Source: Isoetes taiwanensis (taxonomy: Eukaryota; Streptophyta; Lycopodiopsida; Isoetales; Isoetaceae). Taken from it: a stretch of DNA of 64,000 nucleotides. Made by a program: the position numbers and the translations under genes. The number at the start of each line of letters is the position of its first letter. Position 1 is the first letter of the stretch. The stretch lies in assembly GCA_021234155.1 (NCBI GenBank), contig JAJEKV010000084.1, positions 248,001 through 312,000 of the forward strand. The letters are read 5' to 3'. The notes under the pieces were generated by a model. That model had not been told where the DNA came from and made no database searches. It worked only from the letters and a program-made list of their open reading frames with translations. This document shows, in pieces, positions 1-64,000 of this stretch.

Positions 1-300
1 GCCTCATAGGTACCGACCGGGCGCCGTGGCCTTCTTGAAATCCGCCAAATTTCAGAAGTCTACGAGCTTCGGACGAAAGTTACCTTTTCAAAGTGCAGTA
101 CCGGGTACGAGATCGCACGGCAATTCAAGACCGATCTCCATTTCCGCACCTTTGCAATTTTACGCCCAAGAGGTCGGCCGAAGCCTACTTGGTGGCACTT
201 TTAAGGTGACGCCAATCTTTGCGCTATCCACGCAAAGAGGGTCACCATAATGCCTAAGGATCTAGCCCTCGCCCGTAGGATACGGGAGGAGCAACCTTAG
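1..300 (+). pseudogene. Histone H3-like sequence, decayed, 5' end off the window
   Basis: The first 300 bases encode most of the histone H3 core with several single-base frameshifts. Base 2 starts PHRYRPG, which in H3 joins tail and fold. FQKST and RKLPFQ (74-91) match the alpha-N helix. In another frame EIARQFKTDL (109-138) matches alpha-2 start. In a third frame 214-297 gives [16 protein letters not shown] followed by [12 protein letters not shown], then TAG. That last stretch matches canonical H3 at 23 of 28 positions by my count, and it ends where H3 ends. H3 normally packs with H4 in nucleosomes. Divergence at usually invariant sites (REEQP for RGERA) is more than expected of a host H3. 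No LTR edge or PBS lies between this and the downstream accessory ORF at 516, so it appears to be inside the chromovirus. A processed H3 pseudogene is the alternative. The H3 identity is secure; membership of the element is inferred. Confidence 0.85.
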
Positions 301-515
301 CTTACTTGCGGGAGTCCGCATTTGTAAATATTTTTTTTGTAATATTTAATAAAGAGACTTTTATTTTGAATTAAAAAGTTTAATGGTTTTTATGTTAATA
401 ATAAACTAAAGTGCTGACGCCAGTTTTTTTTTTTTTTTAAAAAAAGGGGGTTTAAAAGGGGACTCTTAAGGGTTATTTCAAACGTTTCTTTTCCTCTCTC
501 CTCCCTTCTAGCGCC
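301..515. other. Spacer between H3-like sequence and accessory ORF
   Basis: AT-rich spacer with an AATAAA-like signal near 350 and a long T run then A run at about 424-446. It has no coding potential. I see no LTR boundary or primer binding site here, which is why the flanking ORFs are read as one element. Confidence 0.5.
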
Positions 516-857
516 ATGGCTGCCGCCGACCTTGCCGCCTGGTACCATGATGGAGAGAAATGGGATCCACAAGTTCCCTTCGATCTGCTGCAACCTTTGC
601 TATGCCAACGCATAGACCTCCTCACAAGTATGCAAAATGCATCGGGATTACGCGATTCCCTTGACTTCTACCGTATTATTCCTCACGGGATCCTCCCCAA
701 TTGTATTTGGAGCGGGAGATAGTCCGGCAGATGTTAGGCGGGGACACACATGCTTATGACGTCCTGAAGGGGAAACTCCGATGGGGAAAACACCTGCCAG
801 TAGTCCAACATCAGGGGCATCAATATCTGGAAGCTACTTTCGCCCTAGCCATCCTCA
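516..857 (+). pseudogene. Accessory ORF A of the chromovirus, 5' part (interrupted by CACTA insertion)
   Basis: An ORF starts at ATG 516 (MAAADLAAWYHDGEKW) in a GCC-rich start context (GCGCCATGGC). It stops at 722 because of a one-base shift near 690 in a C-run. The next frame continues without stops from about 690 through 857, where the CACTA-like element interrupts it. Removing that element with one TSD copy leaves the frame in phase with the ORF beginning at 9915, so both parts are one gene. I do not recognise the protein. A segment here (LPVVQHQGHQYL) resembles LPVIYHQGQEYL in the downstream half, suggesting an internal duplication of about 20 residues. It lies after the H3-like sequence and before gag. 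Function unknown. Confidence 0.6.
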
Positions 858-875
858 CACAAGGCCCCCAAAATT
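858..875 (+). repeat. Left terminal inverted repeat of CACTA-like element
   Basis: CACAAGGCCCCCAAAATT, matching the complement of the right end apart from one extra A there. It is preceded by the TCA target duplication. Confidence 0.8.
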
Positions 876-2095
876 GAATTAGTATGATTTTTTTATATTG
901 ATTTCTTAATAAAAACTAATTCTTAAAATCAATACTGGTATGTGGGCCAAAAAGTTTACAAACCATGTCTAGTTATACAATACAGTTCATTAATGCAATT
1001 TCATAACGTGACAAACAAATATTGTTTCTTCACATGGTGTTGAAAGATAATTATTTATAGGTGGTTTTCATGACAACTTAAATATATGATGTTTGCCACT
1101 ACTTAACTTATCAAGTTTATTGAATTGATATTTTGTCACATTTATCATCTTTGGTTTATAGATGTTGTAATTTTGAGTGCATAATTAGTATGATGTTTTA
1201 TAGCGGTTAATCATCATTGTAATCTTAAGTGGATAGTTGTTATAATAATTTATAGCGATTAATCATCGATAAAACTATGCTTGGTTTAGATAAGCTGGTA
1301 TGCATATTTTGGTATGATACCAATACATTTAAACAATATTATAAATGTATCTGATTTTAGTACGATTATAGAACATTGTAAGTATACATGACTTTGAATA
1401 TGGATATCTAATCGTGCTTCATATGTCAAGTTTGGTGATGACTTTGAATATGGATATCTAATCGTGCTTCATATGTCAAGTTTGGTGATGTGGTAAGAGA
1501 CGTATTCCGCCTCAATATATTAATACGATAAAGTTGGAGAACTTTGACATGCATTTTTACCACGTGATTCCAATGTGTGATGCGTGGTGACTAGTATATT
1601 TCAGCATAATGTGCATTTGTTTTTCAAATCTTGATTTTTCTTATTATGAATATTTTTATTTATGAAAGATCACAAAAGCAATAGAAGACAAAGATTGTTC
1701 AATTTTTTTTTTCCATTGAACATTCGTATCAGCATACAATAATATATCAAACAAGAATATATCAAACAAGATCTTTCCTATCTGACACTTGAAGGACAAG
1801 TCTCAAGAAAGTCCAATATATATTTTCGCAACTCGTACTAGACAACTTGGCCCTCAAATAGCAGAAGTATGTTGTTGAAAAGATTGGAGCATGCTGAAGG
1901 AAAGATATCATTGATGTGGATTACATGTACAAACTGTTGCGAGATTTTGATAGTTCGACAGCTTGTGGACCTATCTACACCAGTCGATAGTCGATATACT
2001 ATGCACGAATAAAGTCTTCATCAGCCCTACAACCATTTTCCCCCGCACATAAAAACAGAGATTTTAAGGTAGAAAAATGTTGTAAGCAAAATTTT
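876..2095. other. AT-rich left subterminal region of CACTA-like element
   Basis: No gene seen. It contains short recurring motifs (variants of TATAGCGATTAATCATC around 1200-1270) of the kind found as subterminal repeats in CACTA elements, and the 50-bp tandem duplication listed separately. Confidence 0.4.
1388..1487. repeat. Perfect 50-bp tandem duplication
   Basis: The 50-bp unit starting ATGACTTTGAATATGGATAT at 1388 is repeated without change at 1438-1487. Identity indicates a recent duplication. Confidence 0.95.
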
Positions 2096-2104
2096 CTCAC
2101 TTAC

Positions 2105-2790
2105 CAATTGCGACACGTTTTTTCTGGCCACCAATCCTCATTGCAACACAAAATCTGGAAGTATACACAACATCCGCAATATGTGTTCCACGTCCCACAT
2201 CATAATAAATCAAATCAACTTGCAGTAAAAGCAGCACGTGTCTTCAAAATGTAGGGTGTAACTACTTTGTTTTGGACAGAGGTCTGCTTGCTAATGTAAT
2301 AAAAAAAATAGAAGGGCTCAAGAAATCTGGAGGTACAAAGAACATCTGCAATTTGTCTTCCACAACCTATGTAATAACAATTGACATAACAATTGACGTG
2401 TGTAAAGAGCATGTACCTCCAAGATGTAGGCTGTCATTACTTTGCTCGACAGAGGAGGCTCCCAATTAATTAAAAAACTAAAAGAGCTCGAGAAATGACC
2501 CTAGTTGCTCATTTGCAATGAAAGAAACACACCTTTATAAAAATGTCAAGTTCTAGCTACTGGGGTTATTTCAAAGATTCATCTAACTTCGAAATCAAAT
2601 CTAGAAGAACCACAAATGTTGCGATGATGCAAAACTAACAGTATACATATTATTGAAAATTGAAGCTTACCTTGTCTACTCCCAATACCTTGACATCAGG
2701 CAATTAAAACTCAAGTGTTTCTTGCACTGTCATCTCACCAATGTGCAAATCGTGCTGGCTAACATAACCAGACAATTTACCTCTCTTGCA
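2105..2790 (-). pseudogene. Captured fragment of PDR-type (ABCG) ABC transporter, with a duplicated exon
   Basis: Reading the minus strand from 2790 down, GYVSQHDLHIGEMTVQETLE matches the Q-loop region of plant pleiotropic-drug-resistance ABC transporters. It is followed, after a frameshift, by CQGIGSRQ and a GTAAGC donor. Next come two diverged copies of one exon: VMTAYILE (about 2400-2480) and VVTPYILK (about 2215-2300), each followed by IADV-like text. The lower copy ends with MRIGGQKKRVAIG and a GTAAGT donor at 2104, matching the ABC signature stretch of PDR proteins. Order agrees with the family. Walker A, Walker B and membrane domains are absent, and there are stops and shifts, so this is a non-functional captured gene piece. 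Introns are retained, so capture was from DNA, not mRNA. Confidence 0.75.
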
Positions 2791-3119
2791 ATTTGAACTG
2801 AAATAATAAGCAAATTTTGTATTGGCCCCACTAGCGATTAAAATTCATACTGGCTCCACTAGTAGAGTTACAACAGTTTCAGTCCATAATATTTTCAATA
2901 AGTAGTTAACAGAGAAAATGTGAAGTTAAGCATGACATGTCCCACATGTGACAAATTTAAGAAGGAATATGAACACAAAAGTGTGAAGTTACGAGCACAA
3001 GCTATAGAAGATGTTTTATGCTGTTTCTACTATAGCGTATAATGAAAACACACCAAGGCACTGGAAAGTTCCAAATGCTTGCAGCATGCAATGAATGTCT
3101 AGGAATAGTAAGCTGAATA

Positions 3120-3790
3120 CCTTGATAGCAGCACAAATTGCATCACCGTTAACACCATTAATCACCTCCCTACACTGCATCACTGTTAACAAGAACAACT
3201 CCATCAATCAGCTCCCTGCACAGGCGGAATGTTTCTCACCAACTTGTTTCACAAACGTGCATTATTGAGGAGAAACGTAACATTGGATATCCAATATAAA
3301 GCTGTTTACCTTGTATAGGTCAACTGGTTTTTGTGAGATTTTTCTATTGCTGATTCAAACTCCTCTGCATCTGCCGGCATCTGCTTGGACCTTGGATTCA
3401 CAGAGGGATTCATTATCAAGGCCAGAGACACCAAATAGCTCATTTATTTCCTTTCCACCACTAGAAAATGTATCTAGTGTCATGGACATAGCATTTTCAG
3501 CCTGCTTAAGAGGGTTCCTACTACCACATCTGATGCAAGTCCAGCATCCACAATAACATAATGCAAATTGATAACAAATTGACCAGATAATTACGCAAAG
3601 ATATTGTTTGATGCCAATTCTATTTTAAACCCGCTTAGGGAGCCATACAACAAGCTGCATCATATACCTTATCGTTGGAAAACAACTTACCTGATACATC
3701 ATCGTGGCATCCGTTGAAGAACTCCAAATGATTTCCGCCGTAATGCTTTATCCTGGCAGAGGCATTTCTCCATACCGGATATTCGAACTG
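3120..3790 (-). pseudogene. Exon-like blocks of an unrecognised captured gene
   Basis: On the minus strand three coding-like blocks end in good splice donors. About 3690-3790 reads ...WRNASARIKHYGGNHLEF... and ends CAG|GTAAGT. About 3311-3540 reads CGCWTCIRCGSRNPLKQAEN... with one frameshift, ending CAAG|GTAAAC. About 3125-3180 reads REVINGVNGDAICAAIK and ends AAG|GTATTC. The middle block has two CxxC pairs. I do not recognise the family, and I cannot say whether they belong to the same gene as the adjacent ABC transporter pieces. They lie in the CACTA-like element in the same orientation as those pieces. Confidence 0.4.
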
Positions 3791-3849
3791 GATGTTTAGA
3801 TTGATCTTCTGTGGCGTTTCTTCTGATTCCGCTGCCCCTGCTTCTGCAT

Positions 3850-4015
3850 ATGTGACTCCAAGCGACGGCCTCCCAGCCTCATCTGCATCGGCTCATCGCC
3901 TCATCTGCATCGGCTCATCTGCATCGGCTCACCGCATACATCATCTGCATCTGCTCACCTGCATCTGCCTCCCAGCATCTGCATTGGCTCATCTGCATCG
4001 GCTCACCACCCACCA
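3850..4015. repeat. Short imperfect tandem repeats (CATCTGCATCGGCTCA)
   Basis: Variants of a 15-18 bp unit around CATCTGCATCGGCTCA recur about eight times. The plus-strand ORF over it (3792-4046) is low complexity and is not called as a gene. Confidence 0.7.
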
Positions 4016-4539
4016 TGCTCGGCCGGCTGCCGCCACAAATCTGTAAAATTACCCAAGGTCCAAAAAAAATTCGAACAAAACCCTAACTCCTATTTTCCGC
4101 TAAACCATTGACAAAATCATAGCAATAGATAATTTGCGAACCTTAGGACTATACTACTACATGGATGAGCATTTAAAATTATGAGTGATTTTTGAAATAG
4201 AATGCTCATTCTTGACTTAAGAAATTCATTACGCAAGCAAGACACAAGTATATGAATTCAACATTGGGAATGAAGGCATAAGGTTCAGGTTCTTGAAGTT
4301 CATGCCTAAATTTGGAGAGGGTTCATTTGCGGTTAATTTGTCATGATTAAGGTTTTTGGATTGAAATGTGTGGATTTTTTGAAATAGGTACTTTATGCGA
4401 ATGCTGATACTTGATAACATACGAAAGCCGTCTAAGCATACGCTTTGATTTATAACTTTGTCCACGCTTAAAGTTCTAAAAGCAGGACACAGTTCCTAGC
4501 ATTGGAAATGAAGGCATAAGGTAAAAGTTTGGGAGAGGG

Positions 4540-5280
4540 TGCACGTTGCTAAGATCGAAATATGGTAAAAGCATATCAATGATATGCTCATCCGTTCAGG
4601 AGTGCTGCGAATGTGTGGGCATGTTTCGTGAACCACGTGTGGTGCCATAGGCAACTACCTCATAGTGTAATAATATACCTCCAGCTCATAGTTAACCACC
4701 ACATGTGATTCAATCGTGTAGGCATGTTTCCTGAACCACGTGTGATGCCATAGGCAACTATGTGTTATGAGAGGCCACTTGTTATGACCACATAGTTGGG
4801 GAAGGAGTAGGATAGTTAACTACCTATTTAATCTATGAATACATAAGGTGACAACAACCACGGGTGCTGCAAACATGTGGACATGTCTCGTGAACTACGT
4901 GTGGTGGCAACCACCTGTTATGAGAGGTCACCAAAGCATTTAAATATTGAAATGTAAAAGAAGTGGTCATGTGTATAAATACACACGATGTTTAATGACT
5001 ACAAAGTTCGAGGAAGAATAGTACAGTTAGCAAAAGAAGGAATCACTCAAATAAGTTTATCCAGCGTTTTGTAACTACATAGTAAAGGGCAGAATATAAT
5101 AGTTAACTATCTAAGCATTACCTTAAGCTCAACGGTGACAACCATAGGTTCTGCAAACGTGTGGGCATGTTTTGTGAACCACATGTGGTGGCATAGGCAA
5201 TCACTTGTTATGAAAGGTCACCAATTCATTCTAAAATTTTGAAACATGGAAAGAAGTGGTCATTTAAATGGTCATTCAAA
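4540..5280. repeat. Diverged direct repeats in CACTA-like element
   Basis: Blocks containing GTGGGCATGTTTCGTGAACCA and a following GGCAACCACTTGTTATGA-type stretch recur at about 4615, 4720, 4880 and 5155. Spacing is irregular and similarity moderate. No coding content seen. Confidence 0.65.
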
Positions 5281-7035
5281 ACCGACTTGTTACGTGCAAC
5301 TAGCCGACCTTTCGCTCAATGCACTCTTCGCCTAGTGCGCTAATCTAAACGTGGCATGTACTTAGCAATAGAGGCATTTGATCCATCTTCTGCTCTTCAA
5401 ACATGTGTCCTAGGGTAACTCTGGCCTTCTAGATTTAATCACGATCCGAGAAAACCCTGCATGCAAGCTCTTAACCACTCCAATGGCAGGGAAGGTTGCC
5501 AAAACCTAAACCCTACATATGTAGTAGGGTTGAAGTATCGGGACACCAAAACTGCTCCATCTGCTAATCCCATCGTCCAAATAGTAGCTCGTGTCCCAGG
5601 AGATATCTTCGAAAAAAAAAATGAACATCCATCGCACAAATGTGACAAGCCCCCAAATTTTCCCCTCCCTGACGTAGGGACATGGCGTGTTCCTCTAGTT
5701 CGGCCACTCTACCGAGCTCGAAATATGGATTTGACTTCGCGCATGAGTCTAAAGCATTAAATTTACTATAGGGACCAACTATTATGACCAACAGAGCCAA
5801 ACCCAACTTGCTATGTGCAACTAGCCGACCTTTCGCTCAATGCACTCCTTGCCTAGTGCACTCCTCGTCTAAATGTAGCATGTGCTTGGCAATAGGGGTG
5901 TTTCATCGATCATCTGCTCTTCAAACATGTGTCGGAGGGTAATTCTGGCCTTCTAGATGCAATCGCAGAGTCGAAATGTCGTTCCCTGCCTTTCTGGCAT
6001 GGCTGGTGGTACGTTGTCCAGCTTGTTACGAGCCATCGCAATGGAGAAACTTTGGAAACGGTGCCTGGGGAGTGTTTTTTTGTTCTCTCTCTTGGGATCT
6101 CTTTTCAGACCCTCGAGGAAACCCTGCACGCAAGCTCTTAACCACTCCAGAGGCAGGGAAGATTGTCAAAACTTAAACCCTACAGATGTAGTAGGGTTTA
6201 AGTATCGGGGCATCAAAAAAGCTCCATCTGCTAATCCCATGTCCAAATGGTAGCTCATGTTCCATGAAACATCTCAAAAAAAAAAAAAAAGGAACATCAG
6301 ATGTGCCAACCCCAAAATTTTTCCCTTTCCAAAGTAGGGGCACGTCGGGGACATGGCGTGTCCCTCCAGTTCGGCCACTCTACCGAGCTTGGAATGTGGT
6401 TTTGACTTCGCCCATGAGTTTAAAGCATCAAACTTACTCTAGGGACCAACTATTATAACCAACAGAGCCAAACACGACTTGCTATGTGCAACTAGCCGAC
6501 CTTTCACTCAATGCACCTCGCCTAGTGCACTCCTCATCTAAACATAGCATGTACTTAGCAATACGGGCATTTCATCAATCATTTGCTGCCTAGTTCTGGA
6601 TGCAACCGCAGAGTCGCAATGTCATTCCATGCCTTTCTGGCGTGGCCGGGGCACTACGTCCAGCTTGTTATGAGCCATCACAGCGGAGCAACTTTTGGAA
6701 CTGGTGCCTGGGGAGTGTTTTTTTGTTCTCTCTCTTAGGGTCTCTCTTTAGACCCTCGAGGAAACCATGCATGCAAGCTCTTAACCACTCCAGATGTAGG
6801 GAAGGTTGTCAAAACCTAAACCCTATAGATGCAGTAGGATTTAAGTATTGGGGCACCAAAACTGCTCCATCCATCTAAATGGTAGCTCATGTCCCAAGAA
6901 ATATCTCAAAAAAAAAAAAAAAAAAAAAAAAAAAGGACATCCATTGCACGGATGTGCCAACCCCCAAATTTTCCCCTTTCTGACATAGGGGCCTGTCGGG
7001 GACATGGCGTGTTCCTCCAGTTCATGTTCCTATAG
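5281..7035. repeat. Three tandem copies of a 0.5-0.67 kb unit with internal poly(A)
   Basis: Each copy starts near GACTTGCTATGTGCAACTAGC (5284, 5801, 6475). Each contains a block ending AAACCTAAACCCTA, a poly(A) run, and a GTCGGGGACATGGCGTGTTCC block. Copy 1 lacks about 150 bp present in copies 2 and 3. The A run is 10, 15 and 27 bases in successive copies. ORFs in the copies are not conserved as proteins. Confidence 0.85.
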
Positions 7036-7508
7036 TTTTAGAAAAAATGAGTTGCAATGGTTGAACGTGGTTTACAAAATGTTAAAGATAAGATAAGAGT
7101 TTAAAGATAAGATAAGATAAGTCTTTTAACGTCCACGGAAACGCAATCGGGTTATGGGACCAGAACAAAAAAAGAGGGCATGAGTCCTCACAAAGCTCAG
7201 AGGCTGCCCCCCACAACAAATCACAAATGAGAACAAACAGAAAAATAGAAACTAAACTAGAGCGAATCTCATGGATCAGAAGGCCACTGATCATGAATAA
7301 AAGGAAAAGCAAATTGTCGTGAAGCTCTAGCTGTCAATGATCAAATATTCATTTTTTCAAACTATTGGATTTTGAATTATTGAGCGTTATAATACTTGTG
7401 CCTATTTGCTTTGTGAAAAAAAATATCATAGCTTAGAATGATGGGGAAATCGATCGTGAAACTTTGCTCGAAGCTCAGGGTTTGCAAATTGATGATATCA
7501 TGAATGTC
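7036..7508. other. Gene-free AT-rich stretch
   Basis: No supported feature between the tandem triplication and the LINE insertion site. Confidence 0.4.
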
Positions 7509-7522
7509 AAAATGTATAGGCT

Positions 7523-8610
7523 TGGGATCACGTGCGTGTGCTCTTCCAGCTAGATTATGCCTCAGTTTATCACCACTCTTCTCCTTTCTTGTGGGTTCCT
7601 CTACCCCCTGCGTACTTGCCCTTGGCTGCCACTGTGCATGCTCGGACGCAGGCCCGTTGGAGGCGAGCTGCTGTGCTCACCTTGGAGGATTGGTATTGGG
7701 ATGGTCAGCTAGCTTCGTGGGAGTTCTTTCGAGCTCGCTTTCGCCTGAAGGACAGTGACCGGGCTATCTGGGAACAAGTGGCGGGGAGTATTCCGCTACA
7801 CATACCTATAGTCCCTCAGGGTGATGTGGTGGTGCAGGTTTGGAAGGTTCATCCAGATGTTGTATCTTCTTGTTTTGTGCGGTCTTGTTACCGGGTGTTG
7901 GCTATTCATGACACTCTGCCCCCTTCAGGCAAGTGGTCTCTGCAGCTTCCGGGTTCTCGATGGCGCTCGGTTTGGACGTGGACATGGAGCTCACTTCCCC
8001 ACCGGGTTTTCGGATGCTTCGTGGCGGTGGTGCACCCATTTGTATCGGGGTGAATGTCCTTGTGAGTCGGGTTTAGGCGGGTGTGAGCCCTCTTTGCCCT
8101 TGTTATGGCCTTCATCGTGAGGCTGTGGAGCATTATGCGGTTTTATGCCCTCACTTGCGTGTTGCCCGGGATTGGGTCGGGCTCTGTTTCGGGTGAGATT
8201 GAATAGCCAACAATTGCTTTGCTTCATGTATATCCCGGTGCTTGGCAGCCAGATGGCAGCAAGCCTTGCATCCTCTGTCGTGGCTTGGTTGGTGTGGTTG
8301 ATTTGGAAGCGGGCGGCGGTTGTGGATCTTCGGGGATTCAGCAGACTGCGACCTCTCCGATTCCTCGACTTCGGTACAAGCTATTTCAAAGCTTTTGGTG
8401 TTCCGGGATTAGTAGAGCGGAAGTTTTCCATTTGGCGGGACTTCTTGGGTGTGGTAGATGGTGATGGCCAGTTTGTACAGCAGTAGAGTTGCAGTTGTTG
8501 TGGAGTGTCGAGGTATCACTGTCTCTTTGGGGCAGTTCTCCTTCCTCCTCACTTGCTTTGTAACATTACCATTCTTTTAATATATTGCTGACACAGTTCT
8601 TCAAAAAAAA
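7523..8610 (+). mobile_element. 5'-truncated LINE (family 1, zinc-binding RT tail) with target duplication
   Basis: The insertion is flanked by AAAATGTATAGGCT at 7509-7522 and 8611-8624 and ends in a short A run, as expected of a LINE. The coding remnant (7532-8053, open for 173 codons) aligns with the C-terminal part of the LINE at 27738. Both share the WRRAAVLTLEDWYW / WILAGVVSIQAWYE type segment, WDxxxWEKVA-like text and SCYRVL/SVYRLL ahead of the zinc-binding motif. It includes no RT catalytic core. It lies inside the CACTA-like element and postdates it or was carried along. Confidence 0.85.
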
Positions 8611-8624
8611 AAAATGTATAGGCT

Positions 8625-9893
8625 CATAAAATTCTTGTGTTTTGTATTGGTTTAAAACATAACAAATTATATACAAGACTTGAAGGTTGGTGAATGCATG
8701 GGATGAATCTTTGACCTAATGATGTTTTGGATGAACGAATGTTTTGACCTAGTGATTTTATAAGAAAAATCAAATGTGGTCACAAAAACCATTGAGATTT
8801 ATGTTGGCTAAAATATAGGTCGGGTGAGCCAATTGGATTCGAGAGGATAAATAAGAACAAGATTGCATCCATCAGTTGAAAAGAAGCCGAATCCATTCTT
8901 GGAAAAATAAATTGGATTTACAGATGCAATTAAGATCATGCTTTGAAATCAAGCTTGTTTTTGTGTTTTCCATTGCTGCAATAAAGTCTTGCTTATTTAA
9001 TATAAGTGAAGCATGTTGTTCTAAGTTTTTGCCTACCTGAAGCTACTTATTTGAAGTATCCATGCATCTAAAATTTGAACATTGCTCAGGAATATCAAAG
9101 TCTTACGCTCGACATTATTTTATGTTTTACATTAGAACATTATAGTTGCTCGAGGAAGTTGCTTGATGTTGATGCTATAACTCTTCACCATTCGGATAAA
9201 ATATGTGCATGCTCTCAATACGTGTACTAACTAGTATATCATAGAGGATACATTGAAAAAGGTAAGTACAAACATACACTTGCCCCAATATAAAGCTATG
9301 CTACATATAATGTTAGAAAACAAAAAACAAAGCATAGACACCATGCAACCAGTAAAAGTCAATGTACATAATGCAAGTTTATAATTACAATTAAGGATCA
9401 CGCTCTAAAAGTAGGGCAAAATCAGATATAATAGTCAGAATTACTAGTTAACATAAATAACTATGCTCAAAGTCAGTAGTGACATTAAGGATTGAAACAA
9501 GTATATTAAATAAACAACTACTCAAACCAACGTAATATACCGCTAATAACCATAGTAAATAAGCAAGTGACAAAAACCATAGCACACTTGCAAAATCAAA
9601 TATGGTTCTCCAAAAACTAGGAAGGATTAAAACTAGGTTAAGAATTATATATGATAATGATAAACTAATATGTAAAATCATCTTAAATTGTAATATTAAC
9701 AATGTACTCTTAAGAACCACCTCCTAAACTAGTAATAACTTTAAGAAACTAGCGTTAGATACAAAATTAGTATAAGAACTATGATCATACTAGTAGTGAT
9801 TATGAAAGCCATATAGTTTTCCTTGATATTGTGAATTGCATGTAGTAAAAACCACTCTTATACTGGTTTCTATCATAATTATGAATACGAGTT
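8625..9893. other. AT-rich right subterminal region of CACTA-like element
   Basis: No coding feature. Short motifs such as ACTAGTAGTGATTATG and ACTAGTAATAACTTTAAG recur toward the right end and may be subterminal repeats. Confidence 0.4.
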
Positions 9894-9912
9894 AATTTTT
9901 GGGGGCCTTGTG
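9894..9912 (-). repeat. Right terminal inverted repeat of CACTA-like element
   Basis: Read on the minus strand it starts CACAAGGCCCCC followed by five A. It is followed on the plus strand by TCA, the second copy of the target duplication. Confidence 0.8.
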
Positions 9913-10951
9913 TCATGGACCAATACGTTGAGGATGAGACTTTGCCTGTAGAGAAGGGCAAACTGCCAGAATCCTCCGAGGAGGGGGATGATGAGCATAT
10001 AGGGATGGGCGACTTTGCCCGTTGGAAAGAGCTAGCAGAGGAGTTACCACCGCGCCGTGAACAAGCTATAGGCTTGTCAGGGTTAGACGGCCTTCCAGTT
10101 ATCTATCACCAAGGGCAAGAGTACCTTCTCTTGGATGATATTATCTGGACGTATCATATGGTGGCCGGATTTCGACGCAAGCGCAAAGACCATGTACTTT
10201 ACGAGCTTGCGGAGTATTGTATGGATGATTTTATCGACTTCACCTCTACCGAGCTTCCTTCGGAGGTGCACCACCTTCCGGTTCCGTCGGGGAGACCATA
10301 GAAACCCGCGAGACTCTACTACGCCGAGACTTTGTGATGCGAGGCACCGCTTCCGCGGCTGCACGAATGCCTTCCGCGGCTATGGGACCTCACGTCCCAA
10401 ACATTAATATGGTTGAGGTTCCCTCCGACTCAGATGATGAGGGTGAAGATTTATATCATAACCCTGCACACAAGAAGGAGGAGCAACAGGAGCTCAAGGA
10501 GGAAGAAGTCCCCATGGACTTGGATAAGGAGGTGGCAGCATCTGAGACTCCGCAAGGGAAGGTGCTGGGTAACCACCTTACCCGTTTCTTTTTGTCGGCC
10601 TTCCGATATGGGCAAGTCCTCTTCATAGCCCGGGATCTAGGGCCAGAGGCTGAAGCTTCATGGTGGGCCCTCCGTGCACTCTCTACACTGGCCGGCCACA
10701 AGAAGCTTCCCTATCGTACGTTTACTTATGTACTCGTACGACGGGATCTTGCCCTGACGGCCTTGGGTCAGGATATTGCGCCTTGGATGGGAATGAAGCT
10801 CCTCACGGCAGCCCCATTGGCCGTTGCCTATCCACCCGAGGTTGCATCTGTTGCGGCTGCCACAGTAGACCCTGGGGTTACTCTGCTGCGACACCGACCG
10901 CCTCCACCACCTCCTAGGGCTAAGGATAAAGAGGCAGGGCCTAGTTCCTAG
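9913..10951 (+). pseudogene. Accessory ORF A of the chromovirus, 3' part
   Basis: This continues the ORF of 516-857 after the CACTA insertion. The open stretch 9915-10301 is in phase with the upstream half once the transposon and one TCA are removed. A one-base shift near 10275-10290 moves it into the frame that stays open to TAG at 10949. The residues across the shift (SVGETIETRE...) show coding runs through. The N-terminal piece carries LPVIYHQGQEYLLLDD, similar to a segment upstream. The C-terminal piece has an acidic patch (DSDDEGED, KEEEVPMDLDKE) and ends with a proline run (PPPPPP) and KDKEAGPSS. Without breaks the gene would be roughly 460 codons. No family recognised. It sits between the H3-like sequence and gag. 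Confidence 0.6.
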
Positions 10952-10974
10952 ACTAATGGTGCTATACAAATTTT

Positions 10975-11120
<146 letters not shown>

Positions 11121-11236
11121 GTCTATTATGAGATTTTGGATTGGCAACTCTTTGGTCCCTATTGAAATATGGTGTACCTTATTTACTTATTAAATACAAA
11201 ATTCCCTTGAGGAGTACAACTGAATTGTTTTTTTTT

Positions 11237-11776
11237 ATGACATCCTCTTCCAAAGCATTAAAGTTTAGAATATACTGGAATTACAAAATGTTCTCTATTC
11301 ATTCCAACTATGTTGCAGAGGAAACAATTTGGGAATATGAGGAGAGAATCACCGATATGGTTAGGAGAGACGATCCCGGACCACCGGACCAAGACTATGG
11401 CCAGAGATATGGTGAATATCCAGAGTGGGAGGAAGGCTATGAAACCGAACCACCGCCACCAGGGGAACTCTACGACCCTGACAAAGGGCTGGAGATAGTT
11501 AACATCCTTAGGGACCGAGCTTTCGAGGATCTGAAAATGACCCTGTGTCGTACCTGGGACTACTGGAATATGAGCAGGCACGAGGCTTTCGAGGACGCCA
11601 ATGATCACCTTTGGCAACTCTTTTATGCTATGCGAAGGCTCTTTAACCTTCTGATTATCAGCCCGACATGGGAGTACCAAGCAATCATTGTTCAAGCCTG
11701 GGCACGCTATAAACTCGTCCGAGCTGTACGGGAGAGTACCCGCTACGCGATCCTGTACCCCTTCGCCAACCCCTAA
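11237..11776 (+). CDS. Accessory ORF B of the chromovirus, unknown function
   Basis: Open for 179 codons from ATG 11237 (an upstream in-frame ATG at 11141 lies just after the TA run and is less likely). The protein is acidic and proline-rich in its first half (RDDPGPPDQDYG, PPPPGELYDPDKG). The second half is aromatic- and arginine-rich and probably helical (WDYWNMSRHEAFEDANDHLW, then RRLFNLLIISPTWEYQ). No transmembrane segment, zinc motif or known retroelement domain is visible. It is the only unbroken gene of this element and lies 230 bp upstream of gag in the same orientation. Chromoviruses normally have nothing here. It could be an extra gag-like protein or an acquired gene. Confidence 0.55.
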   Translation: MTSSSKALKFRIYWNYKMFSIHSNYVAEETIWEYEERITDMVRRDDPGPPDQDYGQRYGEYPEWEEGYETEPPPPGELYDPDKGLEIVNILRDRAFEDLKMTLCRTWDYWNMSRHEAFEDANDHLWQLFYAMRRLFNLLIISPTWEYQAIIVQAWARYKLVRAVRESTRYAILYPFANP

Positions 11777-12007: not shown

Positions 12008-13191
12008 ATGCTCCCTATAGACGGTGTACGTAACGCCGCTTGGCAAACACCCTCCAACGCCAGTAGGCTCACCCCTGAACAAGAATTGATGTTAATGAAG
12101 AGGCAACTCGGCGAATTACAGGCCTATGTGTTGCATACCAATCCACTGCAACAAACTCAGGAGGACGGACCGGAATTACCTCCGCGACCATTGAGTCCAC
12201 CTGCACAACAGCCATCTTCTCCCAGAGCTAGCCCTGTACCTGTACAAAAGAGGACTCATGCTAAGCGTCATCGAAGTTCCTCTAAGGATAGTGCCGCTTC
12301 CTCACATTCAACCACTTCGGTGTCTTCGGGGTCATCGCTATCAGACAGTGACCATTCGAGGCGTAAGGATAAGGAATACCGAAAAACCGTTGACACAGCC
12401 ATAACTAGTATATGGAAGAACCGAAAGCTGGCTCAGTTTGATGGGAAATCCAGAGGAGGCTTGAATGCAGAATCTTGGTTGGATGAGATGAAGGAATTTG
12501 GGAAGTCCTATGGAATGACAGAGAAAGACACAGGGAAGGTCGCCACCACCAACCTTACCGGAGCTGCCCGTATTTGGTGGAAGGGTTACGCCAGAGCTAA
12601 GCACACAGGGCGGGAGCGGATGCAAGTTCAAGAAGTTTGCTAAGGCTTTTAAATCGCATTACGTGCCTCGTGCGCACAAATGCCAACAGATTCAGACCTT
12701 CTACAGGTTGGAACAGAAGGGCATGTCCGTGCAGGCCTACACTGACGAATTCATGCGTTTGAGGTTATATGTACCAGGAATGAATGAGAAAAGGGCAGTA
12801 GAGGGCTATATTGAAGGGTTGGCCCCATCCATTAAACGCATGGTCAAGGCCATAGACCCAAAGTCGATGCTTGAGGTGGAAGCTAAGGCATTAAGCCTTG
12901 AGGAAGACATGCCAAGGAACCAAAGATCCGCGACCTGCTCCTTACTCGCGACCCACGGCCGTCCACACCTTACAAACCCGTTAAGCCAAGTCCGGGGCCC
13001 TCTCAGCACAATTCTTCACGGCGCCCGGGGAGAAGAAAGTCGCCTTTAGCACGCCAGATAAGCAGAACAATGCCGGTAAGGAAGTTCGGGGCCTCTTACA
13101 GTCCATTCCTAAAGAGGCCAGAGAACAGCTCCGCCGGGATAAGGCATGCTACCGGTGTATGAGGCCTGGACACTTCATGCAGAATTGCCCG
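12008..13191 (+). pseudogene. Gag of the chromovirus, frameshifted
   Basis: ATG 12008 opens a 211-codon frame with a Ser/Arg-rich linker (KRHRSSSKD, HSTTSVSSGSSLSD). The retrotransposon gag capsid region follows (KLAQFDGKSRGGLNAESWLDEMKEF and ATTNLTGAARIWWKGYA). A one-base shift near 12625 moves it to a frame read as KFKKFAKAFKSHYVPRAHKC and on through QTFYRLEQKGMSVQAYTDEF to about 12920. A zinc knuckle C-x2-C-x4-H-x4-C lies at 13147-13188 (CYRC...GHF...C) in yet another frame. Capsid order and knuckle are typical of Ty3/gypsy gag. It would package element RNA, but three frames are needed to read it. Confidence 0.8.
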
Positions 13192-13571
13192 TACGCCAGC
13201 TGGCCATGGCCGACCTTGATTGGGAAGATCTGGAGTCCAATCTCCCTGCGGAGGACGAGGCTCCCGAGTACATTCACGGTGCGTCTCATATTCTTGCCGC
13301 TATAGAAACAGGCAACGCTGAAAATCAGCCTTCTGTTATTTCTACAATAGGCCAAGTAGACAGTAAGCCCTTCATAATTTTGATGGACACGGGTAGTACG
13401 CATAATTTTGCTTCTCCTAGAATGGCCCAGGTACTGCAGCTGGAAACATTGAGATCCCGACCTAAGCCAGTCACATTAGCCAGTGGTAAGATCAGACACA
13501 CTCATGGCCGCCGTATTAACCTTAAGATCACGGTTGCCGAGTGCACCGGTTGTCTTGGGTCTTTGAGTTAA
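13192..13571 (+). pseudogene. Retropepsin-like aspartic protease domain of the chromovirus
   Basis: The frame 13146-13571 contains KPFIILMDTGSTHNF (about 13365-13410). This is the D-T-G-S catalytic loop of Ty3/gypsy proteases, followed by the expected LASGK segment. The frame stops before the second conserved hydrophobic-GMEFL segment, which is found in the next frame at about 13580-13620 (YDLIVGMEFL). So a one-base shift breaks the domain near 13550. The domain normally cuts the gag-pol polyprotein. Catalytic aspartate is present. Confidence 0.8.
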
Positions 13572-13749
13572 TGGACATTGGTAAATATGATCTTATTGTT
13601 GGAATGGAGTTTTTAGCATCTGCCAAGGCCAACATAGGCCGTGAGAAACGGAGGTCACCTTCAACGCCCGCTAATGGAGCACGTGTGACTATAAAAGGTG
13701 ATTCATTCCACTCCCGCTATGCGATCAATGTCAATAAAGCAGTTAGGAA

Positions 13750-14770
13750 AAGCTATACGCAGGAATGAACTCCTTTGCTTCATTAAACTTGCTTCCATTG
13801 AGTCTGACTCCAAGCAGAAGCAAGTCATCGACGCCTTACCACCAGACATTGCTACCCTTCTTCGGGAATTTAGCGATCTTTTTCCAGATGAGATCCAGAA
13901 GCTTCCTCCTTTCAGAGGGGTAGAATGTGAGATAGTTCTACAACCAGGTACTAAGCCTACCAGCAAGGCCCCGTACCGAATGAGTCCTCCAGAGTTGGCA
14001 GAGCTTAAGAAACAACTTCAAGAGTTATTAAACCTAGGTTTTATTCGGCCTAGTGTTTCACCATTTGGCGCTCCTATTCTTTTTGTCAAGAAGAAAGATG
14101 GCTCCTTAAGGATGTGTATTGATTATAGGCAACTCAATAAGCATACCATCAAGAATCGCTATGCTTTGCCTAGGGCAGATGATCTTATGGGGACCCGATT
14201 CACGGGGAGCAAAATATTTCTCAAAGATTGATTTGCGCTCCGGATACCATCAGATAAGGATAAAGGAGGAGGACATTCATAAGTCTGCTTTTCGCACTAG
14301 ATATGGGCATTATGAGTTTACCGTCATGCCTTTTGGATTGACCAATGCCCCTGCAACGTTTATGAGGTTGATGAATGACATCTTCCGCCAATACTTGGAT
14401 GACTTTGTTGTTATTTTCTTTGATGACATTCTCATCTATAGTAAAACCTTGCAGCAACATGAACAACATCTTCGATTAGCTTTGCAAAAGCTAAGACGCC
14501 ATCAGCTCTTCGCCAAGTTTTCTAAATGCAAGTTCGCCACTCCGAGGGTAGACTATTTGGGGCATATTATTTCAGCAGAGGGAATTGCTACAGACCCAGC
14601 CAAAATAGAAGCAGTAAAGGATTGGCCCATTCCAGCTAATGTTTCAGAGGTCCGGAGTTTCTTGGGGCTCGCAGGATATTATCGGAAATTTGTTAAGGAT
14701 TTTGCAATAATTGCCGCACCTCTTACTAATCTCACAAGGCATGAGAAAGTGAAGGATTGGATGGAACATT
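13750..14770 (+). pseudogene. Reverse transcriptase domain of the chromovirus, one frameshift
   Basis: The frame from 13698 gives [20 protein letters not shown], the typical start of the Ty3/gypsy RT region. [20 protein letters not shown] follows, then the frame ends at 14231. The next frame (14210 onward) carries [26 protein letters not shown] and [11 protein letters not shown], which holds the catalytic DD pair (about 14420-14428). [11 protein letters not shown] and [14 protein letters not shown] follow. All main RT blocks are present in order. Fingers and palm are split by a shift near 14190-14215, so no active enzyme could be made without frame correction. Confidence 0.9.
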
Positions 14771-15329
14771 GGAAAGCAAAAGTCCAAGTCGGCTTTCAGA
14801 AGCTCAAGGATGCTTTAACATCTACACGGTCCTCACCTTGCACGATCACGAAAAGGATAAATCGGTAGCCACCGATGCTAGTAAGATAGCTACCGGTGGA
14901 GTCTTAATGCAGGAAGGGAGAGTTGTTGCCTACGATTCAAAGAAGATGAATGATGCAGAGCAGCGATATCCTACCCATGATCAGGAGTTGCTGGCAGTTG
15001 TTCGTGCTCTCCGTATTTGGAGACACTACCTTCTTGGTAGAAGGTTTCAGCTCGATACGGATCATCAGAGTCTCCGCTATCTATCCACCCAGCCAAATCT
15101 AAATCTCCGTCAGCGAAGATGGATGGAATTCCTCGAGGAATATGACTTCGAGATTGTATACAAGCCAGGGAAGCACAATGTGGTTGCGGATGCTTTGTCA
15201 CGTCATCCCTTCATAACCCGGACCCATTGTAACGCCATTTCCACACTCACCAGCGAGTTTGGGAAGCAGATAGAAACAGACCACGGCCCGCGGATCCCGA
15301 TTACGTATTATTTGGGAAAGTTTGAGTAA
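14770..15329 (+). pseudogene. RNase H domain of the chromovirus
   Basis: The frame 14757-15329 has [18 protein letters not shown] (first catalytic Asp), YPTHDQELLAVVRAL (Glu), FQLDTDHQSLRYL (Asp) and HNVVADALSRH (fourth Asp). The full RNase H set of a Ty3/gypsy element is therefore kept. Before it, the 14119-14868 frame runs out, so one more shift separates RT and RNase H near 14850. The frame ends at 15329 shortly after the domain, at another shift into the integrase frame. Confidence 0.88.
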
Positions 15330-16560
15330 GGAAGCCCGTACCAATAAAGAACGTGAAGCATTCCGTTCATATAAGAAAGAGGGCAATTTGTTATATCACA
15401 AAGATAAGTTGTGTGTTCCAGCGACTTCAGGGGTGCGAAAGCTGATTCTCCATGACACACACAACAGCCCTATAGCGGGACATGCGGGTTTTATGAAAAC
15501 TTACTTTAAGATCCGCTCCAGCTATTTTTGGCCTTCGATGAAGAAGGATATTGCTAGGTACATCAAGCGATTAATGGGGTTTGTCGGCAAACCAAGGCTG
15601 AGCAATTAAGAGTTCGGGGGAGTTGCAACCTTTGGATGTGCCCAACGCCAAGTGGGAAGTCATAACCATGGATTTCATTGTGGGCCTTCCACGCCTTTGT
15701 CGCGTGGATATGATGCATTAATGGTGGGTGGTCGACAAATTATCAAAGATGGCTCACTTCACCGCCATGTCGCACCACGGACACCGCATTCGACACCGCC
15801 TTGCTCTTTGCAAAAGAAATTTTCAGGTTACACGGGGATGCCGAGAGTAATTGTATCGAGATAGGGATCCTAAGTTTGTCGATTGCATTACGGAAGGATT
15901 TCTTCACCACCATACTGACCAAGCTTGCCATGAGTACAGCTTACCATCCTCGGACGGATGGTCAAAGCGAGCGTGTCAATCATTATTATCGAAGATATGC
16001 TTTCTGAAGCTATGTATGGAGTAAAATGATCACAATGGGCGGATTATATTTATCCGGTAGAGTTAAGCCTATAATAAAGATCTGGCGGGGAGTCTTTAAA
16101 GATGTCTCCCTTCATGATAAATTATGGCTATCAATGTCTTACTCGGACCGTGGCATAACCACGTTTCTAAAGTAGAGGTCTCTCAACAACTCCTTTTTAG
16201 AAATCACGGGCCTTGGTGGAGGAAGTTCGGGGGTTACTTATTGGCCGCTTGATCGTCGAGAAGAGTCTAGCGGATAAGCACCAAACCCCACGAATCTTCC
16301 GGTGGGCGAATCGGTTTGGCTTAAGATCAAAGTAAAACAAGCCAAGCTTAAAATTGGTAATCTTAAGAAGTTGGCACCCGGATGGGCTTGGGCGTTCAGG
16401 ATTACTGAGCGCTGCGGGGGCTGAGGCATGTCGCTTGGACTTGCCACCCGGCTTGAAGATCCACAAGGTCTTTCCGTGAGTCTTCTGAAGCAACACCCCT
16501 GATCCGGAGGAGGTTTTGGATACCCCAACTCTCCTAGAAATGATCAAGAGCAAAATGAAA
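15322..16560 (+). pseudogene. Integrase of the chromovirus, heavily decayed
   Basis: The zinc-binding H-x-H part is seen as LILHDTHNSPIAGHAGFMKT, followed by FWPSMKKDIARYIKR; its CxxC pair is lost. The catalytic core start (TMDFIVGLPR, first Asp) is near 15665-15700. ITEGFFTT-like text, MSTAYHPRTDGQSERVNHYY (about 15930-15985) carries the glutamate. The frame shifts repeatedly between 15600 and 16560. At about 16280-16490 a C-terminal segment LDLPPGLKIHKVF is readable, as in the GPF/Y region. The segment would insert element cDNA into the genome; here it is clearly dead. Confidence 0.8.
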
Positions 16561-16790
16561 TAGTGCCCGAAGCTCTTCTTGACCGAGCTTACAAACAGAC
16601 CAGAAGGACTCAAATGTTGCAATACTTGGTCAAGTGGAAGCACTTACCAGTTGAAGATGCTACCTGGGTGATGAAGCTAGACCTTGAGAAGCACTATCCG
16701 GACTTCATGCGGGAAACTCAGGGCCGCACCATCAACGATGCTATCAACCCCGCTCCCGGCGGTAAGCTTGAAGGCTTGATTTGTCGAGAA
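16561..16790 (+). CDS. Chromodomain at the integrase C terminus
   Basis: The frame 16563-16919 begins PEALLDRAYKQTRRTQMLQY, then LVKWKHLPVEDATWV and LEKHYPDF. That is the chromodomain pattern of chromovirus integrases: an aromatic strand, LVKWKxLP, ATW, then a C-terminal helix. In characterised chromoviruses this domain biases insertion toward chromatin with particular H3 marks. The domain itself is unbroken, although the upstream integrase is shifted. The later part of the frame past about 16790 shows no conserved content. The combination with an H3-like gene in the same element is noted under findings. Confidence 0.85.
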
Positions 16791-16919
16791 TCATGTTCTA
16801 GGGGGGTAGATGCATCGTATATTATAATAATAACCAATGATGAGATCACCTTTGTGTTCTCTAGGACATGGTGTATTGTTGATGGTGACATGACCGCGAA
16901 TTGCTTAAAAAGCATTTAG

Positions 16920-44947: not shown

Positions 44948-44951
44948 TATT

Positions 44952-56970: not shown

Positions 56971-56974
56971 CATA

Positions 56975-57650: not shown

Positions 57651-57877
57651 TTTATGCATAGCATATTTATACATAGAGAATTTATACATACATATTTATA
57701 CATAGAGCGGATAAACATAGAGTAATTAGACATTTAGTGGAGTATTTATACATAGAGTATTTGTACACAGAGTATTTGTACATGGAGTATTTGTACACAG
57801 ATTAGTTATACATAGAGTATTTGTACATAGAGTATTTATATATAGAGTATTTGTACATGGAGTATTTGTACATACAT
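57651..57877. repeat. Minisatellite block 2, partial duplicate of block 1
   Basis: The first 110 bp (TTTATGCATAGCATATTTATACATAG...ATTTAGTGGAGTATTTATAC) repeat the start of block 1 (56985-57095), and short units follow. An 87-bp unrelated spacer lies between the blocks. Confidence 0.95.
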
Positions 57878-60799: not shown

Positions 60800-60869
60800 A
60801 GTATAAAAGGTACAGTACCTAACATGCTATAGTCAGGGAAAACTCCTGGTTATGAACATTTAAGATCAT

Positions 60870-61546
60870 TTGGTTGTTTGGCTTTTGCTCACATTCCTGA
60901 AGAAATTAGAAAAAAAACTTGATGATAGGGCATGTATTACATATCTGGTAGGCTATGATCTGCATTCAAAAGCATACAGGTTGTATGATCCTGCTCATAG
61001 AAAAATCTTGATTAGTGGAGATGTAGTGTTCAATGAAAACAAGTTTTATCGAGCAATTCCTAATATTAATGATGATATCTTGAATGATGATCAAAGTAAC
61101 ACTGATGTGAAAGAAACAGTTGAGCATACTGCTCAGACTGAATTTAAAATGCAGGATACAAGGGAAGCTCTTGACAGTGAGAGTGAAGATGGAGATGAAG
61201 ACAAAACTGAGGTACAAGATGAAGAAAGTCTATCAGAATTTGAACCTGCAGGTGAGATAACAGTGCCTGAGTCTGAGATAGCAGAACCTGAGCCACCTGT
61301 GTATTTGGAAAAGCCAAAGAGAAAAATCAGAAGAACTGAGGCTCAGATCTTGGCTGATGAGAGTAAGTTCAAATTAGAGTTGCATGGTAGAACCGAAACA
61401 GGTAGAAGCAAAAGACATCATGATAGTAAAGGTGAAATTCATTCTGTGTTTGATATTCTAGTGTTAGAGACTGATAAATTGCCAAATAATTTTGAAGAAA
61501 CTATAAAAAGTGATGATTCAGAAAACTGGAGAAAAGCTATGGAGGA
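60870..61546 (+). pseudogene. Integrase C-terminal and linker region of the copia element, cut by LTR
   Basis: From about 60900 the frame reads KKLDDRACITYLVGYDLHSK, then YRLYDPAHRKILISGDVVFN, the copia integrase end. An acidic linker follows (ESEDGDEDKTEVQDEE), then the beginning of the RT region (DSENWRKAMED). At 61547 the chromovirus LTR interrupts it, and codons beyond are LTR. RT with its YVDD site lies to the right of the window or is lost. Confidence 0.85.
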
Positions 61547-63165
61547 TGTGACGTTCCAGGGGAGTATACGCTATAAATACGTATATTCTTGGACCCGTCA
61601 CCATACAAGTCTACCTATGTAGCCTTGTATGCCTTAGAAAGTGGCAAGGGGTGCACATCTAAGTTAATTGTTTAACTTAGATAACCTTATGATAAGGCCC
61701 ATTTCCACATGGCCTTATCCTATTGGGCAACCGCCACACGGTCCCATCCTAGTGGTGCCACGTGGCATGGCACGTGGACCCTCACCTATATTGGCTCAAA
61801 CCCTAACCCTAGACCCTTTTCCTGACTCTAGCACCTGAAATCTCATCTACGCGCCCGAAACCTCGATTCGAGCATCGTTCGTCATAGCATAGCCTGGTGC
61901 AGCAGCCCCTGGAAGGTGTGCACGATCGTAGAGGGAGCAAGCCTTCGACCCACGTCAAGGAGCATGGAGACGCCAGGAATGGGAGGAAGCGCTTCTGGAG
62001 CAGATAGGTGGAGTAGAGTTCATGGTAGTTCATCTGGGATTTAGCATTCCAGATGGGTTTGTATCTTGTATCTAGAGTAGAGCCATCCTAGAACCCTTGT
62101 TGAACATCTTGCACCCTAATCAAGGAACCCTAACCGTAGGTTAGATATGTATGATTAGGTTAAGATGTTCTTATGATGTTTATCATGATATGATATATGT
62201 GATGTTGGTTGATCACGTTGCTCCTCTTGTATTGGGAAGGGGGGTAGAGACCTAGGGCCATATGTAGTATGCTCCTAGTGTAGATCCCTTAGTTCCTATT
62301 AGTTGCGGCCTGTGCATAGGAACCCACCAGGCTATTGAGACTATGCTGCGACTCAGCACTACACAACAGGGCCAAAGGCAATATGGAGGGAGGATCCCTA
62401 CCGAGTGGGGGCTACGGGGGATCCCATAATGGGCTAGGCTTATGGTCGGTCACTTCGTGTGGGCCGAGCATCGGTCCGACACCTCCTGGGGCAACAGTGT
62501 CGCCCTGCCTCTCAAGAGTTGCAAGTGTTAGCTTGGCTCTCGTTTTGGGGGGTTCAGTCGGGTATGAATCGTGTATCGCCACGATTCTCTAGCCGCCCGA
62601 GGAGCCTCTAGACCCCGGGAAGGGGAGATGCAACCCTTCCTGCCTCGTCGGACCAGGGAGATGCAACCTGGAGTAGTTCCGATGGGTGATGCCATGGGAT
62701 TGCGTATCCGGAAGGCTAGAGTCATGTCAGAGTCTGATCTAGCCCATCTGCAAATTATGCACAGGAGGGGCGGATGGAGTGGTCAACCCTAGCCATTGTA
62801 TTATGCCAGCCCTCGCCATTGTTATGACTCGGTCTGCTCTACCTTGAGGCCTATCCAGTCAGTCGACTTCCTTATGAGTCAGAGCCACGGGTAGGAGCTC
62901 TCATGTTTTATGGCATATGATTATCTTCTTTGCAGCTATTGTTATGTGGATGAGCTACCCTCGAGGTAGTAGGATGTATTGATTATTGCTAGTTCTGACG
63001 ATGTTATGCTTCCGCTGTGATAGGAGCCCATAGGGGAAGGGCGCGCAATTCGTGTCCATTCCAGAGTGCGGGATAGATGGAGGGCCCGTGTGGTCGAAGG
63101 ACCGGATGGAGGATTTCCTACGGAGTGTACGGCTGCGAGCCGTATATTTAGTAGGGAGCGTCACA
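61547..63165 (+). repeat. 5' LTR of the second chromovirus-family element
   Basis: Starts TGTGACGTTCC, ends GGGAGCGTCACA, 1619 bp. It is recognisably related to the LTR at 17415-19029, and both have the same terminal inverted sequences. Confidence 0.92.
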
Positions 63166-63166
63166 A

Positions 63167-63179
63167 TGGTATCAGAGCG
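63167..63179 (+). promoter_or_regulatory. Primer binding site, initiator-Met tRNA type
   Basis: TGGTATCAGAGCG begins one base after the LTR end. Confidence 0.92.
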
Positions 63180-63713
63180 ATGTTCTTGGTTGACCAGGAA
63201 CTAGCACTGACCATATCCTTGAAAGTAGTCTAACAGGCCCGATAGGGTGCGAAATGGAAAAAGAATTTCCACCATGGAACCTCGAAAATAGGGAAAAATT
63301 TTCTCCTAGGTAGTGGGTCCGTAAGAATAGAGTAAAAGAATGAGTCAAATTAACATTCTAGTAAAATTGGAGTGGAAATTATGAATCAGCATCAAATTTC
63401 ACCTAACACGGGTCGAAGAACCATGCCAATCCGCGACCTGGGTGAAAAATGGCGCAAATTCATAATTAACACTTCAAACCATTAGGAAAAATTCAAAATT
63501 TTAATATAATATTGTATTAAGTATATACTAATAATTAAGCATATTGGAGTAATTAATAAGGGAGGCTAATTATTAGACCTATTAATGGTAGGGGAATATT
63601 TCTAGAACCTCTTCCTTTTAAATATCCTTGCCACCTCATTTCCCCCCAAACCTTTTCCTCCACCTTATCTCTCTTAGTCAGCCTTACATCACCCATTTTT
63701 CAGACCGTCAAAT
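63180..63713. other. Leader of the second chromovirus-family element
   Basis: About 530 bp without a supported gene; GC-poor near 63470-63600 and C/T-rich before the ATG. Confidence 0.6.
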
Positions 63714-64000
63714 ATGGCTCGAACCAAGCAGACAATGAGGAAAGTTGGAGTGAAGCCCACCTCTTCAATGGCGGAGGTAGCAGCAGGCCGACACGGTAAG
63801 CAGATTCCACCACACCTTAGGCCAAGACCAGAGGAGGAGGCGTCGTCTTCGACGGATGACACCTTCCACCCTTCAGAGGAGGGCAGCCCCAGCAGCAGCA
63901 ATTCCTTGTCGGTCGAGACCCAGCGGACCGGCGAGACAGTCCCAGTTGGTGATCTCTCCGGCCAAGAAGAAGAGCAGGAGGACGATCAAGAGCAGCAGCA
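63714..64000 (+). CDS. First ORF of the second chromovirus-family element, with histone H3 tail-like N terminus
   Basis: ATG 63714 (context CAAATATGGC) opens a frame that stays open to the window edge, 95 codons. It starts MARTKQTMRKVGVKP. After the Met, residues 1-9 are ARTKQTMRK, against ARTKQTARK in histone H3. K4 and K9 positions are kept and only residue 7 differs. GVKP that follows is like GGKAP of H3 with one residue less. PPHLRPRP (about residues 36-43) vaguely recalls PHRYRPG. From residue 44 on it is acidic, Ser- and Gln-rich (EEEASSSTDD, EEEQEDDQEQQ), not a histone fold. It is the first ORF after the leader, where gag or an H3-like gene would be. Role in the element unknown. Confidence 0.8.
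   Translation, partial: MARTKQTMRKVGVKPTSSMAEVAAGRHGKQIPPHLRPRPEEEASSSTDDTFHPSEEGSPSSSNSLSVETQRTGETVPVGDLSGQEEEQEDDQEQQ

Follow-up and report, generated by a model that had tools for sequence, protein, structure and literature searches.

The window, that is, the whole stretch of 64,000 nt that was analyzed, is packed with transposable elements, the types of which suggest a plant-like origin. At its left end, a decayed histone H3 core is located upstream of a Ty3-type element and in the same orientation with it. At its right end, an LTR with the same termini as that of the left element is followed by a primer-binding site and by an ORF whose product begins like H3. The features of both elements are given in table 1. 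No tRNA was found by ARAGORN (bacterial code) and no Rfam family was found at the gathering score.

Table 1. Features of the left and right elements in the window.
Feature	Position	Strand	Evidence or remarks
Decayed histone H3 core	2..300	+	tblastn; frameshift-aware alignment; Pfam; PDB
AT-rich spacer after the H3 stop, then pyrimidine-rich leader up to the next ATG	301..515	+	Direct reading; composition
First part of ORF region (eORF-5′F-like), function unassigned	516..857	+	One frame change; no Pfam match in 2 pieces
Insertion of 9,055 bp bounded by inverted termini (CACAAGGCCCCCAAAA type)	858..9912	+	Termini; target duplication
Second part of ORF region	9913..11776	+	In frame with 516–857 across the insertion; no Pfam match in 3 pieces
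gag	12008..13046	+	Within 12519–13046: Ty3_capsid 1.6e-12, Retrotrans_gag 7.9e-11
Aspartic protease	13143..13571	+	PF13975 2e-6
Reverse transcriptase, RNase H, integrase zinc-binding domain	13695..15609	+	4.4e-32, 9e-34, and 2e-15, respectively; shifted frames
Integrase core, decayed	15732..16137	+	Frameshift-aware alignment
Integrase C-terminus with chromodomain	16503..16919	+	PF00385 1.1e-8
3′ LTR of left element	17415..19029	+	1615 bp; polypurine tract upstream
LTR of right element	61547..63165	+	1619 bp; inserted in copia element
Primer-binding site TGGTATCAGAGC	63167..63178	+	Direct reading
First ORF of right element, open to window end	63714..64000	+	Begins MARTKQTMRK; 95 residues in view

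The H3 Remnant and the Left Element

The H3 core at positions 2–300, which had been proposed in an earlier sequence-only reading, was recovered by tblastn with an E value of 5e-16. In the frameshift-aware alignment, nt 2–294 cover residues 39–135 of an H3.3-like sequence, with 68 of the 94 aligned residues identical, the respective value for an H3.1-like sequence being 66/94. The aligned path contains six frameshifts and zero stops, and its score (282) is to be compared with a maximum of 42 among mononucleotide shuffles (n = 60). The stop codon at 298–300 is found at the normal position of H3. The stop-free piece 205–297 matched the Pfam family Histone (PF00125, E 1.4e-10), as well as H3 chains of the PDB (best E 3e-11), whereas the N-terminal 35 residues, when read in a single frame and searched alone, matched zero Pfam families. 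In detail, all four approaches (tblastn, alignment, Pfam, and PDB) show that the histone fold core is present. The start of the window cuts the gene at residue 39, and any N-terminal tail would lie outside it. A remnant of a host CENH3 was rejected as the identity of this core, with a score of 282 for the H3.3-like sequence versus 152 for CENH3, the latter represented by an Arabidopsis CENH3 core.

The spacer 3′ of the H3 stop contains an AATAAA at 348–353. The next ORF starts at 516, that is, 215 nt after the H3 stop, and neither an LTR nor a primer site was found between the H3 and this ORF. The ratio of observed to expected CpG is near 1 in the H3 piece (1.10) and in the spacer (1.02), 0.69–0.74 in the 5′ ORF pieces, the gag-pol and the LTR of the left element, and 0.59–0.63 in the right element. 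The higher CpG of the H3 and its spacer compared with the left element is a hint, from small counts, of a different history. The frameshift load is six in ~293 nt of H3 versus seven in ~406 nt of the left integrase, both counts being dependent on the scoring used. An H3 older than the element was considered on the basis of this density and rejected; since the decay of the integrase is about equal, the H3 is not visibly older than the left element. Thus, decay and CpG point in opposite ways as to whether the H3 and the element share their history.

The ORF region which begins at 516 is split by the 9,055-bp insertion, and a 3-bp target duplication (TCA) flanks the latter at 855–857 and 9913–9915. 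Judging by its termini only, the insertion appears to be CACTA-like. The four ORFs tested within it gave no Pfam match at E 0.01, and internal repeats are found at about 4676–7023. When the flanks were joined (68 + 70 nt), one of the three frames was open across the insertion site, an agreement that would by itself occur by chance in one of three cases. Because termini, TCA duplication, and frame concur, it is supported that 516–857 and the sequence from 9913 onward were once contiguous. The second part of the region is not continuous, owing to frame changes and to a long (TA)n run located at about 10964–11141. The piece 10229–10948 retrieved 6695 candidates in the protein-database search, zero of them at E ≤ 1, and its AlphaFold2 model, computed with no alignment, has a mean pLDDT of 38.8.

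The remaining left element shows the Ty3 order of gag, protease, reverse transcriptase, RNase H, and integrase in shifted frames, and it carries a chromodomain at the C-terminus of the integrase, as chromoviruses do. The chromodomain had also been recognized in the sequence-only reading. In its decayed integrase core, 39 of 129 residues are identical to another Ty3 integrase of the window, with seven frameshifts in between. The same domain order with a C-terminal chromodomain is described for plant chromoviruses in the accessible part of PMC6317226, where the clades Tekay, Galadriel, Reina, CRM, Tcn1, and Chlamyvir are distinguished and an H3-like part goes unmentioned. The comparison by eye of the translated chromodomain with the description in that part of the source suggests that it looks like the plant type that does not have the full aromatic cage.

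The only LTR of this element in the window is the 3′ LTR, 17 kb from the H3. Because there is no second LTR of the element in the window, the location of the H3 and of the 5′ ORF region inside it is something that we infer. The claim that an H3 lies at the 5′ coding end of the element therefore stands as far as position and orientation are concerned, and is left conditional as regards membership. About 420 bp beyond the 3′ LTR begins the frame of a LINE-type reverse transcriptase (19450–22230), with 802 open residues and matches to RVT_1 (3.5e-32) and zf-RVT (1.9e-7).

The Right LTR and Its First ORF

The LTR at 61547–63165 interrupts a copia element (58958–61546, with gag, zinc knuckles, integrase, and SH3 domain). 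It was taken as a 5′ LTR because the primer site and a leader come after it. The primer site, TGGTATCAGAGC, is presumably of the initiator tRNA-Met type. Only 835 nt of the right element are in view 3′ of the LTR, and the first ORF past the primer site starts in them at 63714, 548 nt from the LTR. Its first residues, MARTKQTMRK, match residues 1–10 of H3 except for residue 7, that is, eight of nine after the Met.

A chance origin of this start, with the H3 at the left as an unrelated pseudogene, was weighed on account of the short match (ten residues only) and of the motif being chosen post hoc from the whole window. However, among the 3049 ATGs of the window (both strands) the next best match to the start of H3 has four residues, and in a third-order Markov model derived from the window, 0 of 4,000,000 simulated ATG starts reached 8/9 and a single one reached seven. 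Besides, the match is located at the first ORF past the primer site, and chance is in our view an improbable explanation. The N-terminal H3-tail motif exceeds chance expectation, as a histone-mimic motif should.

Beyond this motif the similarity ends. In the comparison of the whole ORF (95 residues) with H3, a single shuffle of 5000 did equally well, but the part past residue 10 is no more similar to H3 than shuffles are (1611/5000), and an H3 core was not found in residues 40–95 (4581/5000), the rest of the ORF being outside the window. After the ten-residue start the protein is acidic and rich in Ser, Glu, and Gln. Because of the shuffle-level similarity past residue 10 and of the absence of a core in residues 40–95, the right ORF is best described as encoding a different protein, acidic in nature, that bears the tip of H3 as a motif. 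The H3 tail that had been reported here is thereby reduced to ten residues. There was no Pfam match for the 95 residues, the protein-database search with residues 1–60 (X-padded) returned three candidates with zero at E ≤ 1, and the single PDB match was weak and to an unrelated protein (E 1.9).

The same ORF could also be the beginning of a full, divergent histone of the H3 or CENH3 type, with a long acidic insertion or tail and with the core past the end of the window. CENH3 proteins begin with MARTK and their tails are variable, and residues 32–39 (PPHLRPRP) loosely resemble KPHRYRPG, the opening of the H3 core. On the contrary, the tails of CENH3 are basic and the one found here is acidic, the likeness past residue 10 does not exceed that of shuffles, and the core is absent from all 95 residues in view. 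A divergent histone is, thus, unlikely.

Relationship of the Two Elements and of Their H3 Pieces

The two LTRs (17415–19029 and 61547–63165) have common ends, TGTGACGTTCC and GGGAGCGTCACA, and near equal lengths (1615 vs 1619 bp). In their 3′ parts, the identity amounts to 64.6% in an alignment of 1013 columns. Over the full length, 859 of 1509 aligned bases are identical, and because of this value the LTRs appear to belong to distant families that are related at the lineage level and are not copies of each other. Hence, the LTRs are of one type, as previously suggested, in their ends, length, and 3′ part, and not over their full length. Similarly, the designation of both elements as chromoviruses holds for the left one by its Ty3 order and chromodomain; the right one offers 835 nt and an ORF devoid of Pfam matches.

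The comparison of the right ORF with seven ORF pieces of the left element gave no convincing match. Homology to the left gag was rejected, as even the lowest shuffle count (piece gag12008) was 42/1000 as good, both sequences being Ser-rich. At the DNA level, the 835 nt that follow the right LTR scored 22.5 against left positions 300–862, which is marginal, given that mononucleotide shuffles (n = 40) reached up to 22.0. The respective score against 9913–12100 was 26.5, within the shuffles (maximum 38.5), and in the control against the left LTR it was 23.0 (shuffle maximum 33.0). One copy of each H3-bearing kind is in view. At the left the H3 is a separate ORF with its own stop, whereas at the right the H3 tip is fused to another protein.

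Tentatively, and with somewhat less than even confidence, we prefer the reading that the region 5′ of gag in a plant Ty3 chromovirus lineage contains sequence stemming from a host H3. Several observations speak for it: the upstream, co-oriented H3 core; the continuation of the ORF region after H3 past the later insertion and towards gag; the lack of an LTR and of a primer site in the interval that separates H3 from the following ORF; a decay of H3 like that of the integrase; the 8/9 match in the first ORF after the right LTR and primer site; the ends and length shared by the LTRs; and, weakly, the marginal DNA score (22.5 vs 22.0). Against it are the end of the similarity at residue 10 of the right ORF, the separate ORF of the left H3, the dissimilarity of the seven left ORF pieces to the right ORF, the CpG contrast, the single copy of each kind, the frame agreement which chance gives once in three, and the left 5′ LTR being outside the window.

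The two H3 pieces could alternatively be due to separate events. The left one would be either a pseudogene of an ordinary host H3 or the outcome of a single capture, next to a chromovirus incomplete at its 5′ side, and the right one a histone mimic that arose by itself as a short linear motif. This possibility has to be taken seriously, even though we consider it rather less than probable. The H3 stop in its normal place with an AATAAA soon after resembles the end of a gene, the element has a lower CpG than H3 and its spacer, the similarity of the right ORF to H3 is confined to ten residues, and the window does not include a 5′ LTR for the left element. Nevertheless, two independent rare events would be required within one window of 64 kb, and in both cases beside LTRs whose ends agree, and the ORF found 215 nt past the H3 stop goes with the sequence leading to gag, provided that the insertion is read rightly. 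These two coincidences, that is, an H3 core upstream of a co-oriented chromovirus and an N-terminal H3 motif after a related LTR, favor a link; because it is hard to accept both as independent, some connection between the LTR lineage and H3 is favored.

Returning to a chromovirus lineage with host-derived H3 sequence, we infer a shared origin of the two H3 pieces, as well as any function of them. The observation made in the sequence-only reading is mostly real and it is partly confirmed here. A single H3-bearing family is plausible, on one copy of each kind and with the left boundary off the window. The further proposal of that reading, that tail and fold were split between subfamilies, exceeds the data, given that the left tail is off the window and the right ORF has no H3 similarity past residue 10.

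Possible Role and Comparison with Known Systems

In the proposed scheme, the H3-derived part would sit at a place in which additional ORFs are frequent among plant LTR elements. The left, old copy would represent an H3.3-like gene that ended in a stop of its own and has since decayed, and in the right copy the first ten residues alone would have remained recognizable, at the N-terminal end of an acidic protein. The first Met is usually removed before Ala. If translated, the right protein would then expose Ala-Arg-Thr-Lys-Gln-Thr exactly like H3, and this tip could be bound or modified by the readers and writers of H3K4 and H3K9 of the host. Such binding might tether the particle or the pre-integration complex to chromatin, or might distract the silencing machinery. 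The most likely role, if any, would be to bring the protein into contact with chromatin or with silencing factors of the host. Binding of the mimic by the element's own chromodomain is possible and is not predicted, because the left chromodomain appears to be devoid of the full aromatic cage. The most elaborate form of the scheme is doubtful. In it, a host H3 gene was domesticated by a chromovirus lineage to serve as an accessory gene at the 5′ side, and in one branch it shrank to an H3-tail mimic on an acidic protein, which would engage chromatin readers or writers alongside the integrase chromodomain.

Extra ORFs upstream of the polyprotein (eORF-5′F) are known from plant LTR elements, and they are heterogeneous and were probably acquired independently from many sources, according to the accessible part of PMC6317226. 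The left ORF region, ahead of gag and devoid of known domains, resembles such ORFs. The eORF domains named in the part of that source at hand include no histone, and eORFs are mainly reported there from the OTA (Athila, Tat, Ogre, and Retand) and SIRE lineages.

The capture of histone H3 has been described for fungal hAT DNA transposons, that is, for H3L of Pyrenophora tritici-repentis (PMC3538342) and for Pseudocercospora fijiensis and relatives (PMC6710886). As far as the accessible parts of these sources go, the likeness consists in the presence of an H3 gene in a mobile element, by which it may be amplified, and in copies that may be decayed; unlike the present case, the fungal elements are DNA transposons with many counted copies. 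Here, plant LTR elements are concerned, with one copy per kind, one of which has just a ten-residue tail. The right motif is also like the histone mimics of viral or host proteins, in which a short motif copies the modified N-terminus of H3, and here it is located at the very N-terminus, as in H3 itself.

No histone mimic in an LTR retrotransposon was found among the best 20 of 34 literature matches on such mimics. Likewise, neither an H3 gene nor an H3-tail mimic in an LTR retrotransposon was found among the literature matches listed, a scope outside which most subscription papers fall. In a term search, the main text of a review of gene capture by plant elements (PMC13317346) had no word beginning with "histone". 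In IMG/VR, one reverse transcriptase piece gave four pattern matches, none of them a relative, and a MARTKQT[MV]RK-type pattern gave zero; the pattern of LTR end plus primer site gave zero both in IMG/VR and in prokaryote genomes. These negative outcomes are uninformative on plants.

Elements with chromodomains are well known. If one of them additionally produced a copy of the histone tail, this would represent a new way in which a retrotransposon targets or evades host chromatin. Such an element would provide a direct test of plant chromodomain integrases and silencing enzymes facing an H3 decoy. The capture alone, if shown, would extend the fungal hAT cases to an H3-bearing LTR element of a plant.

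Elsewhere in the window, a second Ty3-type element has an apparent LTR pair of its own (42934–44949 and 53799–56048), with identities of 99.2% and 92.4% for two pieces of the pair, and it includes a long open reverse transcriptase frame at 47306–49483 and an rve match at 52953–53375. An array of 15-bp tandem repeats extends over 56949–57879, and the ORFs on both of its strands look like repeat artefacts.
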